The notes under the pieces were generated by a model that was given only the letters and a program-made list of their open reading frames with translations, was not told where the DNA came from and ran no database searches. A DNA stretch of 64,000 nt from Saccharicrinis aurantiacus (GTDB lineage: Bacteria > Bacteroidota > Bacteroidia > Bacteroidales > Marinilabiliaceae): contig NZ_LYBV02000023.1 of NCBI RefSeq assembly GCF_001660705.2, forward strand, positions 124,001-188,000, in the 5' to 3' direction. This document shows, one piece after another, positions 8,880 to 38,735 of the stretch (positions are counted from its first letter, which is position 1; every line of letters starts with the position of its first letter). The translations under genes were made by a program, and so were the position numbers.

Positions 8880-8895
8880 TTTACGTTTGCAGTCA

Positions 8896-9119
8896 AATAG
8901 GTGAACAATTAATGCATCGGATTTTTTGTTAAAAGGGAATGCCGTTAAAATCGGCAACAGTGCCCGCTACTGTAAGTCTCACGTTCTTAATACAAGAACA
9001 GGCGTTTTACAACATACTCATTACCATTGCCAAGTTGGCGAGAAGGTTTTTGTAAAACAGAGATAAGTCAGGAAACCTGCCTATAGATTATACTAATGAA
9101 ACTTCCGGGATAAGAAGTT
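8896..9119 (+). promoter_or_regulatory. Cobalamin (B12) riboswitch with expression platform
   Basis: The conserved core is readable: AAAAGGGAATgccGTTAAAA (8930-8949), TCGGCAACAGTGCCCGCTAC (8951-8970) followed by TGTAA, and the B12 box AAGTCAGGAAACCTGCC (9065-9081). After the box, AACTTC and GAAGTT (9100-9119) form a small hairpin that probably belongs to the expression platform. The element lies between a good promoter and a TonB-dependent receptor start 107 nt downstream, so it should turn the receptor and following lipoproteins off when adenosyl- or other cobalamins are plentiful. The 5' limit is approximate. Confidence 0.9.
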
Positions 9120-19567: not shown

Positions 19568-19916
19568 ATCGTAAAGTTTTAAATTTTTATTTGATAATGC
19601 TAAAGTAGTGCACTAAAAATGATTGCGGAACAGCAAATCTGTGAGTTGCGAAATTTTTGGGGTAAATTGCGAAAACGGACAAAAATACCGGCGAAGGACT
19701 GATTTATGCAAATTGGCTTAGGGACAGAAGCGGCATCCTTTGTGAGCCCATTTTGGCGAAGCAAAGATATAGCGGATGGCCCGACCCGCAGGGGAAGCCC
19801 CAATTGATAGGTCTGAAAAGAATTGGTGATTGATTATTTGCAGGATGGAACAGGGATAAAAAAAACGGCCGATACAGGGTTGTATCAGCCGTTTTGAGTG
19901 TATCATGTAGTTGGTA
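19568..19916. other. Intergenic region with GC-rich element and terminator
   Basis: 349 bp with no gene. It holds the LiaF-like operon promoter (left part), a GC-rich block near 19748-19802 (GCGGATGGCCCGACCCGCAG, then GGGGAAGCCCC), and the terminator of the GH127 operon. Short frames across the GC-rich block are not credible genes. Confidence 0.5.
19862..19895 (-). terminator. Intrinsic terminator of the sulfatase/GH127 operon
   Basis: AAAACGGC-c-GATACA pairs with TGTATC-a-GCCGTTTT around a 4-nt loop (one mismatch). Read leftwards it is followed by a T-run (complement of 19858-19865). It lies 21 bp after the GH127 stop codon. Confidence 0.85.
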
Positions 19917-32703: not shown

Positions 32704-33609
32704 ATGTCACATTCAAGAAGAAACTTTGTAAAAACGCTTACCCTAGCAAGCGCTTCTGCTGCATTACTACCCACTGCTTGTAGTAGTAATAAGGATAAAA
32801 AACTAACCATACTGCACACTAACGATGTGCATAGTCATATCGATCCTTTTCCGGCCAACGATAAAAAATTCGGCAATAAAGGAGGCTATGCACGCAGGGC
32901 TGCCTTGGTTAAAAAAATAAGAGCTACTGAGCCCAATGTAATACTATTAGATTGCGGTGATATTTTTCAGGGCACACCCTACTTTAATGTATTTGATGGC
33001 AAGCTTGATATCAGCTTAATGAGCAAAATGAAATACGATGCCGCAACAATCGGAAACCACGAGTTTGATAGTGGTGCCGAAAACTTAGCCGAACGTGTTA
33101 AAGAAGCTCAGTTCCCTTTTGTTTGCTCTAATTACGATTTCACAAACTCACCTCTTGAATCGCTAACAAAGCCTTACGAAATCATTAAAAAGGGCGATTT
33201 AAAAATTGGTATTATCGGACTTGGCATAAAACTGCAAGGCTTAGTTGACCCCAGAATGTGTGGAAATATTACATACAACAACCCCATTGAGGTTGCCAAT
33301 CGTCTGGCAAAAAAGCTAAAGGTCGACGACCAATGCGATGTGGTAATTTGCATATCGCATTTAGGCTACAAATACGAATCGGATAAGGTTAGCGATGTAG
33401 AAGTAGCCACAAAATCAGAAAACATTGATGTGATTTTAGGGGGCCATACGCATACCTTTTTAGACGAACCCACCATTGTAACTAACCTTAATCAAGAACC
33501 TGTTATTATCAATCAAGCAGGCTGGGGAGGTGTTAAATTAGGCAGAATTGATTTAACCATGCACGCGCACAAAAAAAGCAAAACATTAGCTTACCATAAA
33601 ATGGTTTAA
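32704..33609 (+). CDS. Metallophosphoesterase, catalytic half of a split 5'-nucleotidase
   Basis: 301 residues. The N-terminus has a twin-arginine motif (SRRNFVKT, residues 4-11) and a lipobox with C26, so a Tat-exported lipoprotein is likely. Metal-binding motifs: LHTNDVHSHID (D41, H43), DCGD (D86), GNHEFDSG (N118, H119), SHLG (H219) and GGHTHTF (H248, H250). It ends before the nucleotide-binding domain, which is the preceding gene. It would hydrolyse 5'-nucleotides with its partner outside the cytoplasm. Last gene of the rightward operon. Confidence 0.9.
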   Translation: MSHSRRNFVKTLTLASASAALLPTACSSNKDKKLTILHTNDVHSHIDPFPANDKKFGNKGGYARRAALVKKIRATEPNVILLDCGDIFQGTPYFNVFDGKLDISLMSKMKYDAATIGNHEFDSGAENLAERVKEAQFPFVCSNYDFTNSPLESLTKPYEIIKKGDLKIGIIGLGIKLQGLVDPRMCGNITYNNPIEVANRLAKKLKVDDQCDVVICISHLGYKYESDKVSDVEVATKSENIDVILGGHTHTFLDEPTIVTNLNQEPVIINQAGWGGVKLGRIDLTMHAHKKSKTLAYHKMV

Positions 33610-33662
33610 AATAAGACTTTCAACTAATAATGTGAACCAAGGGTTGATAAGCTTTTATTTAG

Positions 33663-33846
33663 AGCGCCTCGTTTTATTGGCCTCATTTTTAAATAGCTTT
33701 TGTTTGTGTTAAAACTTTAGTAAGACTGGGAAGCAGAGAGCTTTGCTCGATGATCACCCAGCCGCACTTAAGTTTTAGCATAATAAAAAGGCTATTTAAA
33801 AAGCAGCCTTGATTTTCTTTGCCCTGCCTTTGCCGGCAGGCAGGTT
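33663..33846 (+). repeat. Structured interspersed repeat, copy A (3' of nucleotidase operon)
   Basis: The core 33663-33822 aligns along its length with the reverse complement of 38473-38631. Shared blocks are AGCGCCT, GGCCTC, GCTTTTGTTT, CTTTAGTAAGACTGG, AGAGCTTTGCTC, CCAGCCGCACTTAAG and AAAGCAGCCTTGA. It folds into one long hairpin: 33686-33701 pairs with 33786-33802, 33708-33717 with 33770-33779, CTGGG (33726-33730) with CCCAG (33757-33761), and GAGC with GCTC. A second hairpin, CCTGCC/GGCAGG (33823-33840), and CAGGTT follow. It sits 54 bp after the stop and upstream of the terminator. Confidence 0.75.
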
Positions 33847-33936
33847 ACTTTCTTTTATCAAGAAAAGAAAAGTAAGTCAGGGTTTAAGGGATGAAATCCC
33901 TTAGTGCATACTAATCTTGATTCGCATTAATAAAAC

Positions 33937-33968
33937 GAGGGTATCTATTCAATAGATACCCTCTTTTT
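33937..33968 (+). terminator. Intrinsic terminator of the LpxR/5'-nucleotidase operon
   Basis: GAGGGTATCTATT (33937-33949) and AATAGATACCCTC (33951-33963) are perfectly complementary, giving about 11 bp plus a tight loop, followed by TTTTTG. It is 327 bp past the last stop codon, with repeat copy A in between. Confidence 0.88.
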
Positions 33969-34575
33969 GTAGGTTTACTTTCCTTCCTCTTAAGCATACG
34001 CCCACTTGCACCACAGGCATTACTAAAGTACGCATTGGGGCGCCATATCCTGCTATGCGTTTTAGCCTTTATGTTTTAGCTTAAGTCAGCCTAAAGCGTG
34101 CGTGTGCTTCCTGCGGTCGCATCCGCCACTTAAAGCTGCCTAAACCCAAACCACAAAGGGCTACCACTCCTATCAGGGCCGCACATTGGCATAAATCAGT
34201 AATTGGTGCCTTAACATTAGCAAAACCCATCTAGCAAAGCTTAGCCATTCCATAGAAAGTTGCGAGCAATAATCAATACAAGAGCAAACATCCATTTTTT
34301 ATTAAAACCCAGTGTTTACAAGGCGAGCGCCAATACAAAGTACGCACCATCCAGTGTAAACTGAGGGACATCCAGTGCAAACTGAGCATCATCTAATACC
34401 AACTACACACCAGCGCGTGTGTTTTATGTGTAAGCAAATGCGCATTACAAGCCATCCCATATAAATTACAAACAAGCTGATGCAAATTACCGGCAAGCAA
34501 ATATAAATTACGCACCATCCATCACTAAAAATAGAAGATCTAATACCAAATTTGACCCATCAGGTGAAACCATAC
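33969..34575. other. Non-coding region, partly GC-rich, with repeat array
   Basis: No gene is supported in about 600 bp. 33990-34200 is GC-richer (GGCGCCATATCC, TGCGGTCGCATCCGCC) and of unknown origin; 34206-34560 is a degenerate short-repeat array. It separates the rightward nucleotidase operon from the leftward receptor operon. Confidence 0.55.
34206..34560. repeat. Degenerate ~21-bp repeat array
   Basis: The clearest units are CATCCAGTGTAAACTGAGGG (34348-34368) and CATCCAGTGCAAACTGAGCA (34369-34389), adjacent 21-bp direct repeats. A decayed third copy (34390-34410, CATCTAATACCAACTACACA) follows. ATAAATTAC/CAAATTAC units recur at 34460-34511. A unit at 34235 resembles unit 2 of the 14.5-kb array. 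Boundaries are approximate. Confidence 0.5.
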
Positions 34576-34621
34576 AAAAAAAGCAGTAACACAAGGTTTA
34601 AACCCTCGCATTACTGCTTTT
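34576..34621 (-). terminator. Terminator of the first TonB receptor/lipoprotein operon
   Basis: AAAAGCAGTAA (34579-34589) pairs with TTACTGCTTTT (34611-34621), with a nested GGTTTAAACC palindrome in the loop. Read leftwards it is followed by T's (complement of 34576-34582). It lies 50 bp after the lipoprotein stop. Confidence 0.78.
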
Positions 34622-34671
34622 ATAGTATTTGCGGCCGCTCCTTAAGAACAACCTTTATAATTTATCAAGAA

Positions 34672-35376
34672 CTAGTCTATAATCACTTCTAAATACATTG
34701 GTGAAGTAATTACCTCAGAGCCTTCGCCATATGTAGCAAAAGAAACTTGCCAAATTTGGCCTTCTTCAAGATCTAACATGTGGTGCGATTTGATGATAGT
34801 ATTGATTTTTTCAATAATATCTGCTTTGGTATTGTAGCGTAAATCAAAGTTTGGATAACCTTCACCCACCATTGTATAATCAGAAGCAATTAAAGTATAA
34901 GTGTTTGTACTTTCTTTATTATCTGATTCAATAAGTTCATAATTAGGTACTACTTGCCAATAAGATGAATCGGCAGGTGTTTCGCGCACGTAGGTTACAA
35001 AGCAAGTTGAATCAACTGTTCCGCCTTCGCTACCTAAATAATAGGCAAATTGTACAGTTACTAATTCGCCATTGTTTCCGTATAAATTATGAATGGTTTC
35101 TGGTAAATACTCATCAAAAGGTGCACTATCCGAAAAATTCTTGTAATCGGCTACTGATTTATTTGAAGACATTTCGTAGTCCTCATCAGTTAAAACATAA
35201 GGAGAATTTGCGTTGTATTCTGCTTCTGTAGCTAAATCCCTTTCAGAGATAAAGATGTACCAATCATCGTCAGCCTCAAGGTTATCATTTAAATCATCTC
35301 TATATTCATCTAAAGGATCGCAAGAGAAAAACGTAAATGCTACGGATAAAAATAATATGCTTTTAAATAAATTCAT
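34672..35376 (-). CDS. Uncharacterised lipoprotein paired with TonB-dependent receptor
   Basis: 234 residues; lipobox TFFSC-D with Cys about 19, then an acidic linker (DPLDEYRDDLNDNLEADDD). The remaining domain (DYEMSSNKSVADYKNFSDSA, VTVQFAYYLGSEGGTVDSTC) resembles in layout the first ~130 residues of the lipoprotein at 42944-43873, which also starts C-E-P-L-E and accompanies a paralogous receptor. It is not a SusD. It lies 26 bp downstream of its receptor. Inferred: surface-exposed ligand-binding partner of the receptor. Confidence 0.68.
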   Translation of the reverse strand: MNLFKSILFLSVAFTFFSCDPLDEYRDDLNDNLEADDDWYIFISERDLATEAEYNANSPYVLTDEDYEMSSNKSVADYKNFSDSAPFDEYLPETIHNLYGNNGELVTVQFAYYLGSEGGTVDSTCFVTYVRETPADSSYWQVVPNYELIESDNKESTNTYTLIASDYTMVGEGYPNFDLRYNTKADIIEKINTIIKSHHMLDLEEGQIWQVSFATYGEGSEVITSPMYLEVIID

Positions 35377-35402
35377 TGTTCTGTTTCTTTAATAATCAAA
35401 TA

Positions 35403-37934
35403 CTAAAAGTCAAGCTTTAAACCAAACGACCAAGTTCTACCTAAACCAATATACATCGATGATGCATCCCAAGTTCTGCCATCATTAGCATCGGCAATAT
35501 ACCACTCGTCTAAAAGGTTACTAATTTGAGTAAATGCAGAAGCATTTAGATTTCCAATTTTGAATCGGTAAGATGCATTTACGTCTAATAAACCAAAGTT
35601 TGGTAACTGCCAAGCCTGAACGCCTGATGAAGCTTCATCAGTTCTATCTTCTGGCGAGAAGTTAGCGTAGTTTTTAGCAAAATAAGTATAGTCGGCACCA
35701 ACACTTAGGCCTTCTAAAATTTCGTATTTAGCACCTAAAGCAGCTGTTATTTGTGCTGAGTTACCTACTTTTAAACCTTCAGTATAAAGCTTATAATCGC
35801 CAATAATATTTTGATCTTGATCAACAAAAGTAGCGTTTACATCGTTTGCCCAAGTCCAATCACCAACAGATCCCATACCGGTAACTGTAAGCTTAGTTGT
35901 AGGTCTCCATTCAAAATCAACTTCAACACCCATGTGTTGTGCATCCAAACCTAAAATGTTTGCATATCCGAAGAACTCGCCATTGTCATCGTACATTGAT
36001 TGAATCATGGTTTTATCTTGCCAATAGGTATAATAAGCATTCGCATTAACCGATAAAGTATTACTACGGTAACCGTATCCTAACTCAACACTATAAATAC
36101 CTTCATTTTTAGCTCCATCGTTCACATTGTTTGTATTGTTAATAAATACAGCGTTCATCATCGGAGGACGTTGGAAATAACCTGTATTGAAAAATACGTT
36201 GTTTTTTCCGTCAATATTAAAGTTAACACCTGCTTTTGCAGAAATAGTTTGGTGGTGTTGCCAATCGGTAATATGATCGCCTTTTGCATGATCTTCAAAA
36301 TCGTAACGACGGTATGAAACATTTGCAGCAGCCATGTTAACGAAAGATGATAAACGACCTTCGCTATACTCTAACTGAGCAAAAGCAGATTCCCACAATA
36401 CTTCTCCATCACTATGGTAACCTACAATATCGCCTTCACGAACAACCACATCCATGTTCTGACCATATTTATTACGGTTTACAACCGCATATTGACCACC
36501 CATTAAATCATCTAATACTTGGTAATGCTCGCCATAATAATAACGTCCATCTAATCCACCAATAAACTTAAGGTTGTTATTCACATTCCAGTCTAAGGTA
36601 GAAACTCCACCATACCAATCGTGATTATTTACAGATGATGCCATATATGTAGATGACTCACCGTTTTGTGCATTTTCGCGGTATAAACGATCAAAATCGA
36701 TTAAGCTTCTGCTGTCGCCTACACGATAATCGTTGAAGTTACGATCCTCGCCAAAACCAGCTACACCACCACCTCTACCTTGAGAGGCATATAATACAGT
36801 TTTAAGATTCAAATCATCGTTAATATTCCAAAAGTGATTTAACGACATTTGAGGCTTGCTATAATAATTTGTACGTGCATTGTACTCGCTTCCGTTAAGG
36901 TAACCCCAATCGGCATTGTGCTTACGTCCGTATTGATTCCACTCATCTAAGCTCATCATTGTACGACGCTGTCCGTGCGATTGATTTGCTCCAAATACAT
37001 TGAATGAAAGTGTATGCTTATCATTAATTACTTTTGAAACATTGGCAAAGTAACTCCACCCTTCAAATTGTAATCCATCAGCCCAACCTTTACCTTCGGT
37101 ATGAGAACCAGAGAATGTAAAAGCCCAACCTTTATCATTTAAACCTGTTGAGGCAGTAAATGCCATTTTTTCGTAACCATCGTTACCAATTCCATAGTAG
37201 ATATTTCCACCTGGTTTACTATCGGTAGTGGCCGTTAATATATTAATTGTACCTCCGGCAGATGGAACCGCTAATTTAGAAGCTCCCATACCACGCTGAA
37301 CTTGCATTGTACGAGTAACATCTGATAAACCAGACCAGTTACTCCAATAAACGGCACCATTTTCCATATCGTTTACCGGAACACCATTAATCATTACTGC
37401 AATGTTATCGGTATCAAAACCACGTAAAGTAATACGTGAGTCACCAAATCCTCCACCTGAGTTAGTAGCATAAACACCTGGTGTGGCCTTTAATACTTGA
37501 GGGAACTCTTGAGAACCCAATTTTTCTTCAATCATTTTTGGTTGAATGGTAGATACTGCAACCGGTGTTTTACGGTCTACCGCAAAGTTGGCCACAACCT
37601 TAACCTCATCAAGGCCAACATCGTTACTTCCTAATGTAACAATACCCATGTCAACAGGAGTACCATTTAAGCTTACATTTTTCTCAATAGCATCGTAACC
37701 GATGTAGCTAAACACTAGGGTGTGATCTCCATTTTCAACTTCAAGAGTAAAGGTTCCATCAAATGAAGAAACTGTTCCATTAACTGTACCTTTAACAACA
37801 ACAGATGCCCCAATTAGCTCCTCTCCCGTTTTAATATCGGTAATTGTTCCTGTAACAGTTGTTTGTGCAATGGCTGATAGTGGTAATAAGCCCAAACTTA
37901 AAAGCCAAACGAACCTGAATAATCGGATTCTCAT
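35403..37934 (-). CDS. TonB-dependent receptor, paralogue 1
   Basis: 843 residues: signal peptide (cleavage after PLSAIA, about 22), carboxypeptidase-D-like domain (25-105), plug (about 120-245, VLKATPGVYATNSGGGFGDS, MINGVPVNDMENGAVYWSNW), and a 22-strand barrel ending WSFGLKLDF. The plug is very similar to that of the receptor at 43885-46476 (the same VPVNDMENG and MQVQRG stretches), so the two arose by duplication. There is no SusD neighbour; a small lipoprotein follows instead. Outer-membrane active transport; the substrate may be nucleic-acid derived, judging by the paralogue's operon. Confidence 0.88.
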   Translation of the reverse strand: MRIRLFRFVWLLSLGLLPLSAIAQTTVTGTITDIKTGEELIGASVVVKGTVNGTVSSFDGTFTLEVENGDHTLVFSYIGYDAIEKNVSLNGTPVDMGIVTLGSNDVGLDEVKVVANFAVDRKTPVAVSTIQPKMIEEKLGSQEFPQVLKATPGVYATNSGGGFGDSRITLRGFDTDNIAVMINGVPVNDMENGAVYWSNWSGLSDVTRTMQVQRGMGASKLAVPSAGGTINILTATTDSKPGGNIYYGIGNDGYEKMAFTASTGLNDKGWAFTFSGSHTEGKGWADGLQFEGWSYFANVSKVINDKHTLSFNVFGANQSHGQRRTMMSLDEWNQYGRKHNADWGYLNGSEYNARTNYYSKPQMSLNHFWNINDDLNLKTVLYASQGRGGGVAGFGEDRNFNDYRVGDSRSLIDFDRLYRENAQNGESSTYMASSVNNHDWYGGVSTLDWNVNNNLKFIGGLDGRYYYGEHYQVLDDLMGGQYAVVNRNKYGQNMDVVVREGDIVGYHSDGEVLWESAFAQLEYSEGRLSSFVNMAAANVSYRRYDFEDHAKGDHITDWQHHQTISAKAGVNFNIDGKNNVFFNTGYFQRPPMMNAVFINNTNNVNDGAKNEGIYSVELGYGYRSNTLSVNANAYYTYWQDKTMIQSMYDDNGEFFGYANILGLDAQHMGVEVDFEWRPTTKLTVTGMGSVGDWTWANDVNATFVDQDQNIIGDYKLYTEGLKVGNSAQITAALGAKYEILEGLSVGADYTYFAKNYANFSPEDRTDEASSGVQAWQLPNFGLLDVNASYRFKIGNLNASAFTQISNLLDEWYIADANDGRTWDASSMYIGLGRTWSFGLKLDF

Positions 37935-38304
37935 TTTTTACGTAGTTTTTGTGTAATAATAAATTAATATAAACGACCTTTTTGGTCGCTGCCACAACAA
38001 CTAAGAGTATGCCAATTTGTAATTGAGAATTAAAACTTTTGTTAAAATTGGTGTTATTTAATTGTAACCATTAAGGTAATTTAACTAATGACAATACTGG
38101 CTGAAAATAAACTAAACAGGCACATGCACCTACAATTCAAATACTTAACACAAGCCTAAAGAATTAACTTATATTTTTTTAACCCACTTATATTACCTTA
38201 GTGTTAATTATAGAGGATAAACGAAGATATATTCATTACAAAAATTATCTAATTTTCACTTTCGATCACATCTTTATTGAGGAAAAACATCTTCTTTTAA
38301 AAAA
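37935..38304. other. Upstream region of receptor paralogue 1
   Basis: 370 bp of AT-rich sequence, presumably holding the receptor promoter (reading left). No clear regulatory motif was recognised. Confidence 0.45.
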
Positions 38305-38338
38305 AAAGAGGAATACAATTCGAATTGCATTCCTCTTT
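38305..38338 (-). terminator. Terminator of the nuclease operon
   Basis: AAAGAGGAATACAATTC and GAATTGCATTCCTCTTT are complementary except one position (17-bp arms meeting at a CG centre). Read leftwards, a run of T's follows (complement of 38298-38307). It is about 400 bp past the endonuclease/exonuclease/phosphatase stop codon, with repeat copy B in between. Confidence 0.82.
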
Positions 38339-38413
38339 ACAGAAGTTTATAGTGAAGTTGCTTAAGAGACGAATATTTTCCTAAATAATATTACGTGTTG
38401 GGCTATTTGCCCA

Positions 38414-38631
38414 AACCTGCCTACCAGCAGGTAGGCCCAACTTCATTTCTTGCCTTGAAGCAAGAAACAGAAGCAAAGAAATTCAAGGCTGCTTTCCAAA
38501 AAACTTTCTTATTTATTTGAAGCTTAAGTGCGGCTGGCGGATCTAAGAGCAAAGCTCTTAGCTAGCCAGTCTTACTAAAGCTCCAACTAAAACAAAAGCC
38601 TTTTGTAAAGAGGCCAGCCTAACAAGGCGCT
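38414..38631 (-). repeat. Structured interspersed repeat, copy B (3' of nuclease operon)
   Basis: The reverse complement of 38473-38631 aligns with copy A (33663-33822). On the - strand it folds the same way with different bases. CTGGC (38565-38569) pairs with GCCAG (38534-38538), where copy A has CTGGG/CCCAG. TTGGAGCTT pairs with AAGCTTCAA (38578-38586 with 38517-38525), where copy A has TTAAAACTT/AAGTTTTAG. CTAAGAGC pairs with GCTCTTAG. The distal CCTACC/GGTAGG hairpin (38420-38435) matches CCTGCC/GGCAGG in A, and both are followed by CAGGTT. It lies in the sense orientation between stop and terminator. Confidence 0.75.
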
Positions 38632-38735
38632 TAAATACAAGCCTACAATAAAACACATTCCAATAACAAATTATTCATTAGTGAGTTAGCCTTAATCTTA
38701 AAAATCCTTTAAAACGCTATTGTTAAGATACCATA

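Follow-up and report, generated by a model that had tools for sequence, protein, structure and literature searches.

The NEMIS or Correia elements, ERIC and the Yersinia palindromic sequence are described as bacterial miniature transposons (MITEs) with a transcribed secondary structure, and transcripts upstream of ERIC are reported to be affected in an orientation-dependent way (PMC2229807). In Coxiella burnetii QMITE1 and QMITE2 reach about 50 copies per genome, some of which are transcribed as small RNAs; QMITE1 measures 300-400 bp and is flanked by direct repeats of 2-3 nt (PMC5896051). Within the Bacteroidota, a MITE of Porphyromonas gingivalis contains a minisatellite (PMC4596501), and Bacteroides thetaiotaomicron possesses FopS, a 14-member family of paralogous sRNAs composed of a single-stranded 5' stretch plus a terminator (PMC11697453).

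The window analysed here comprises 64,000 nt of Saccharicrinis aurantiacus (contig NZ_LYBV02000023.1, positions 124,001 to 188,000) and holds two related repeats, A and B (Table 1), which with a probability of about 0.8 are non-autonomous miniature transposons carrying a structured RNA. As far as NEMIS/Correia, ERIC and the Yersinia palindromic sequence are described, they are likewise short, non-autonomous, intergenic and folded when transcribed; compared by description they have other hosts, whereas the elements here show an apical RNA motif that is near-invariant over families and orders, at least two types of ends in one genome and interchangeable arms. The QMITE elements are similar in copy number and QMITE1 also in size, but the direct repeats of QMITE1 differ from the 9 bp found here, and expression of QMITE is demonstrated in C. 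burnetii while the present elements are known from sequence alone. FopS is, like them, a multicopy noncoding RNA family in Bacteroidota; the elements here, however, have a long structured arm enclosed by transposon ends, and the passages on FopS mention no transposon ends. The P. gingivalis MITE also belongs to Bacteroidota and, again compared by description, differs in the minisatellite described there. None of the titles and abstract openings returned by a literature search describes the element, which does not prove that a description is absent.

Table 1 Features of elements A and B in the window (duplications and motifs of B are read on the minus strand)
Feature	Position	Strand	Remarks
Element A, MITE with A-type ends	33632-33925	+	294 nt; 5' GTGAACCAAGGGTTG, 3' end ...CTTGATTCGC
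Left target duplication of A	33623-33631		ACTAATAAT; 7/9 match with 33926-33934
Right target duplication of A	33926-33934		ATTAATAAA
Type-1 arm of A	33679-33808	+	GGCCTC ... GCAGCC; aligned copies, covariation
Near-invariant apical motif of A	33717-33771	+	conservation over 96 sequences; pattern in named genomes
Possible pseudoknot partner in A	33808-33813	+	CTTGAT; loop 33857-33862 (ATCAAG)
Small REP-like palindrome nested in A	33822-33844	+	insertion relative to other copies
3' hairpin of A	33845-33875	+	loop ATCAAG
Terminator-like hairpin past A	33937-33963	+	host sequence outside the element
Element B (MITE, ends of the B type)	38722-38371	-	352 nt; 5' CAATAGCGTTTTAAA, 3' ...AATATTC
Target duplication 5' of B	38723-38731		GTATCTTAA; 8/9 match with 38362-38370
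Target duplication 3' of B	38362-38370		GTCTCTTAA
Type-1 arm of B	38487-38615	-	GGCCTC ... GCAGCC; aligned copies, covariation
Near-invariant apical motif of B	38524-38579	-	conservation
3' hairpin of B	38441-38473	-	loop TTCAAGG (38459-38453) able to pair with CCTTGAA (38488-38482)
Small palindrome nested in B	38416-38435	-	different point than in A
Terminator-like hairpin past B	38305-38338	-	host sequence outside the element

Both copies lie in sense to the upstream gene (open reading frames ending at 33609 and 38736) and just upstream of a hairpin resembling an intrinsic terminator, as an earlier sequence-only reading had noted. The proteins encoded upstream are a Metallophos protein and a 5'-nucleotidase C-terminal protein for A and an Exo_endo_phos_3 protein for B. 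The alignment of A and B claimed in that reading holds over the arm and the 3' hairpin. Of the three covarying stems named there, two indeed differ between the copies and yet pair; the third is not homologous, CCTGCC/GGCAGG of A and CCTACC/GGTAGG of B being small palindromes that sit at separate insertion points, the 3' hairpin in A and the GGG hairpin in B. The borders first proposed, 33663-33846 and 38414-38631, give way to those of Table 1, which are set by the inverted ends and the 9-bp duplications. Such small nested palindromes occur at various places within A, B and other copies in L009-L040, for instance CCTGCC..GGCAGGCAGG or a TCGGGACGATTAAGAATTGAGTATTC-like insert, and they look like separate small mobile repeats.

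The same window contains further RNA features and repeats. Two matches to the Flavo-1 RNA (RF01705) exceed the gathering score, at 34042-34184 (-), just past the terminator of A, and at 19711-19790 (+). A cobalamin riboswitch at 8882-9098 (+) (75.4 bits) precedes an 806-aa open frame. The stretch 34016-34801 has a 91% copy at G000:C10:19055-19841, and 34263-34496 has an 88% copy at C29:228562.

The pair had been taken for a two-copy element. A DNA search of the S. aurantiacus genome with copy A as query gave 57 matches, by which a two-copy, operon-specific element was rejected. From these loci 40 distinct copies were excised with their flanks and aligned, and the 40 arms form the covariance model R1. 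It finds 78 matches in this genome, both strands together, as the element is palindromic; counted with one strand per place and after exclusion of a weak 70-nt match on contig C67, 42 copies were used. A covariance-model search of the genome and its relatives, which the earlier reading had proposed, thus brought further copies to light, with R1 matches in 9 of 61 genomes including that of S. aurantiacus. Within the genus eight further genomes were searched: G001, G004, G005, G006 and G007 were positive, and G002, G003 and G008 gave no R1 match. Other genera of the family contributed G018, G019 and G032. In named genomes the exact pattern of the apical motif occurs in at least 110 stretches. 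The matches listed include records of Carboxylicivirga, Labilibacter, Saccharicrinis, Puteibacter, Marinifilum, Labilibaculum and Ancylomarina, of Prolixibacteraceae and Salinivirgaceae, and of several Flavobacteriales such as Cryomorpha and Crocinitomicaceae.

When genomes were drawn evenly over the phylum, model R2 matched one of 395, that of S. aurantiacus itself; this is a weak test with strict filters and eight candidates scored per genome among the matches listed, and by it the family is probably uncommon across the phylum as a whole. No match was obtained in plasmids with copy A as query, in phages with copy B as query, or in viral contigs with the exact apical pattern. The total set comprises 187 copies, 107 from S. 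aurantiacus and its relatives and 80 from named genomes, which are related, so that the counts given below are not counts of independent events. Some copies are clustered (L197, L202, L012 and L128), e.g. two about 300 nt apart in Marinifilum, and the close spacing suggests local or nested duplication.

The inverted ends of A differ from those of B, and the target duplications of both are decayed (7/9 and 8/9); one arm family therefore sits on at least two scaffolds within one genome. The ends of A match those of the sister copies L009 and L013, which have 9-bp duplications of 8/9 and 9/9. In genome G007 both ends were recognised in 9 of 12 copies examined (5' CACATCTGTCCTAAA and 3' TTTTGGACAGCTCTG, small changes allowed), and 9-bp direct repeats flank all nine of these two-ended copies, seven exactly (e.g. 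ATTTAAATA, ATTTCAGGT and ATATGGACT) and two at 8/9. Over the whole set, most of the 187 copies are without a recognised pair of ends. A combined score for ends plus duplication of at least 19 is reached by 20 of the 187, compared with 3 of 187 when each 5' flank is joined to a foreign 3' flank. The 41 of 187 copies with motif-defined ends and neighbours called on both sides were kept, and 26 of them have a duplication of at least 7/9 (13 exact), the other 15 one of at most 5/9.

The elements thus combine terminal inverted repeats, recognised in part of the copies, with a target duplication of 9 bp and a length of 280-480 nt wherever both ends were found, and many short copies exist without a transposase gene; the arms at the S. 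aurantiacus and named loci share no protein family. Taken together, the sequences support the mobility of the elements well. A palindromic mobile element, one of three possibilities raised in the sequence-only reading, is the one borne out by the inverted ends, the 9-bp duplications and the similar ends of IS4-type sequences in relatives.

Scaffold and arm behave as separate modules. Two copies are armless, L036 with an A-type flank and tail and L144, a B-type copy of 179 nt with the duplication TAAATGAAG. In both the arm is absent between short AGC-containing repeats, and its loss may be explained by slippage deletion of the hairpin. Furthermore, a second arm occupies the same scaffold with similar borders and has no evident sequence likeness to the first; its loci (L299-L328, L143, L145 and L153-L156) show a conserved apex of their own. 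The pattern of this second arm occurs at 40 places in five genomes, nine of them in S. aurantiacus. Among 31 copies read from 30 of these loci, the sense strand folds better in 30, copies between tandem genes comprise 12 sense and 3 antisense, and six show recognisable ends with an exact 9-bp duplication.

The B-type end CAATAGCGTCCTAAA recurs with minor changes at the borders of IS4-family (DUF4372) insertion sequences in relatives. A run of the end pattern (B-type plus G007-type) on three genomes led to L140 of G007, in which CAATACCGTCCTAAACG and CAATCGCGTCCTAAACG, with the duplication GTATTAGGA, enclose a stretch containing transposase sequence. Matches to Pfam DUF4372 occur in 10 of 15 genomes searched. 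Two DUF4372-holding remnants, L281 (G008, duplication GTTTAATTT) and L275 (G003, duplication ATTACAGAC), carry CAATAGCGTCCTAAA on either side, a single change being present in one of these four ends, and L288 of G007 contains an intact 389-aa open frame with DUF4372 and DDE_Tnp_1 adjoining the end CAATCCTGTCCTAAA. Partner insertion sequences with B-type ends are thus found in the relatives G003, G007 and G008; for A-type ends no partner was found. These IS4-family sequences (DUF4372 plus DDE_Tnp_1) resemble the elements in the end CAATAGCGTCCTAAA, or one close to it, and in the 9-bp duplications; the elements differ in having no transposase gene, and the likeness is established at the ends.

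Because IS4 sequences of relatives share their terminal sequence with the B-type scaffold, an IS4 transposase acting in trans is the likely mover of the B type. The S. aurantiacus genome and G005 gave no DUF4372 match, though copies are present, and in G003, G008 and G034, which have DUF4372 matches, a type-1 copy was not found; this lack of genome-by-genome correspondence between IS4 and type-1 copies counts against our reading. G007 contains another DUF4372 insertion sequence, which ends differently (CATTAATGTCCCATTAAAGT) and occurs at the ends of four contigs (L270, L279, L284 and L287).

Conservation of the fold by covariation, which had been derived from two copies, was confirmed on 96 sequences (95 distinct) of many genera, aligned with R1, so that the alignment is fitted to the model structure and favours it. 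Standard pairs make up 89.1% of cells, compared with 64.5% when the letters of the 3' sides are shuffled, and changes on both sides occur in 36 of 38 pairs (28.3 after shuffling). The covariation score is 0.613 as against 0.176 for shuffled sequences, none of 500 shuffles reaches 0.613, and slid controls stay at or below 0.167. The apical motif of the arm, which is about 130 nt long, is near-invariant across genera, and this extends to positions that are not paired in the model (UUAGUAAGAC ... AAG ... AUCA ... GCCGCACUU). Over the arms in the window Rfam 15 gave no match, nor did it in 19 further loci (E up to 0.5). At L111 (1842-1958), just downstream of an element, part of a group II intron is weakly matched (35.2 bits, below the gathering score of 49); no long open frame is listed nearby downstream. 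A coding function of the arm was rejected, since the spacing from AAGn to RATCA varies by single bases and the stems covary: among 117 copies bearing the pattern this stretch measures 16 nt in 59, 17 nt in 40 and other lengths in 18.

The modelled pairs contain 173 G-U or U-G compared with 51 A-C or C-A, and counted per sequence (n = 96) G-U is in excess in 65, A-C in 11 and neither in 20. The sense strand has the lower folding energy in 157 of 186 copies, with 92 of 107 for S. aurantiacus and its relatives and 65 of 79 for the remainder, one of the 80 named copies having dropped out of this test. This advantage of the sense strand points to RNA; folding of one strand as single-stranded DNA would be expected to give the same asymmetry. 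Selection at the level of RNA appears supported by these sequence patterns, and the relevance of the RNA is deduced from the G-U pairs, which stand well above A-C, together with the sense bias described below. In 74 of 187 copies the loop of the 3' hairpin can form 6 bp or more with upstream sequence, compared with 5.5% for shuffled loops, and loop and upstream partner show paired changes, e.g. CTTGAT/ATCAAG and CTTGAC/GTCAAG. That no more than these 74 copies show the pairing counts against our reading.

Orientation and position genome-wide had been named beforehand as the observations to be made, random orientation and position speaking against the earlier reading. Orientation is non-random, in favour of that reading. 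Between tandem genes, as called automatically, 104 copies are in sense and 29 in antisense (p=4e-11 against one half), with 61:14 in S. aurantiacus and relatives and 43:15 in the named set, from which 9 duplicates of 115 had been removed; copies in convergent or divergent regions give no information on orientation. By genome the ratios are 29:5 in S. aurantiacus, 9:1 in G032, 7:3 in G007 and 3:3 in G005. Against 70%, a rough assumed ceiling for a pure effect of replication direction, the bias gives p=0.022 for both sets together, 0.019 for S. aurantiacus and relatives and 0.3 for the named set, and thus exceeds this assumed ceiling only modestly.

For position no comparable rule emerged, which counts against the earlier reading, and the placement between stop codon and terminator, true for A and B, does not extend to the other copies. 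Among tandem copies with known ends 15 of 25 are nearer to the stop than to the next start (p=0.47). Around the 42 S. aurantiacus copies terminator-like sites in sense lie downstream in 8 and upstream in 5, those in antisense downstream in 5 and upstream in 4, and relatives and named genomes show no excess of downstream sites; this lack of enrichment counts against our reading. Folding energy is equal in sense (94) and antisense (25) copies (p=0.98), which speaks against a role of the fold at host level; as stability does not depend on orientation, what preserves the fold seems to be the success of the element itself rather than use at individual sites. The resemblance between the operons of A and B is not general: the commonest neighbour family of the S. 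aurantiacus copies is found at 5 loci and includes a sulfatase, and that of the named set at 9 of 110 loci. A linked helper gene in the flanks of the S. aurantiacus and named loci was rejected.

A 3'-UTR regulatory RNA or released sRNA which co-regulates the two flanking operons would agree with the sense position of A and B between stop and terminator and with the phosphoesterase-like proteins (Metallophos and Exo_endo_phos_3) upstream of both. The 42 copies adjoin diverse genes, however, proximity to stops or terminators is not general and fold stability does not depend on orientation, so that this regulatory link, suggested when two copies were known, is very unlikely. Only a little better, and still very doubtful, is a multicopy family of sRNA genes with their own promoters, spread by transposons in the manner of FopS. 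The elements are multicopy structured RNAs, and a promoter-like stretch was seen by eye upstream of some B-type copies; on the other hand the upstream regions listed, compared by eye, differ between scaffolds and show no common promoter, an own terminator is absent, and FopS is described as a single-stranded stretch plus terminator.

Two further explanations place the palindrome at the level of DNA. Copying from arm to arm at replication (quasipalindrome correction) would make covariation uninformative on RNA, and the element is indeed a long palindrome that matches its own reverse strand. Such correction is very unlikely in view of the marked excess, on one strand, of G-U pairs over A-C mismatches, the better folding of this strand and near-invariant apical positions that are unpaired. 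Movement as single-stranded DNA through a Y1 transposase, as in a REP/RAYT or IS200/IS605-type element, is hardly credible: the strand-specific hairpin, four Y1_Tnp matches in the S. aurantiacus genome and the small REP-like palindromes nested in copies fit it, but the inverted ends with 9-bp duplications largely refute it for the whole element, and the longer Y1 loci L043 and L044 contain no GGCAGGCAGG-like 10-mer within one mismatch. Y1 enzymes are not known to produce inverted ends with 9-bp duplications.

In the preferred reading, that of miniature transposons with a structured RNA, an IS4 transposase in trans would move the B-type elements, and the payload is the long arm with its near-invariant apex followed by a hairpin whose loop often can pair upstream. 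The fold would act as RNA made by read-through from the upstream gene, as strand asymmetry and sense bias suggest, and selection would concern the element's own spread rather than each host site, to which the equal stability of sense and antisense copies points. As a tentative guess from the sequences, the RNA may make an untranslated insert tolerable in a transcript by serving as an insulator or stabiliser. A bolder proposal, rather doubtful, sees in the arm itself a functional, selfish RNA module which rides on differing transposon ends across Bacteroidota, can be replaced by the second, unrelated arm and acts on the transcribing host machinery. It might, for example, be an antiterminator or insulator in nascent RNA with the near-invariant apical loops as putative binding site, and arm-carrying transposons could then live inside operons.

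Folded transposon repeats are common in bacteria; a fold whose internal loop is near-invariant over families and orders, occurs on transposons with different ends and has no Rfam name points to a specific function of the RNA. If this RNA works for the transposon, it would be a novel means by which mobile elements coexist with transcription; one class of intergenic hairpin repeats of marine Bacteroidota would be explained as well, and a model for the family provided.
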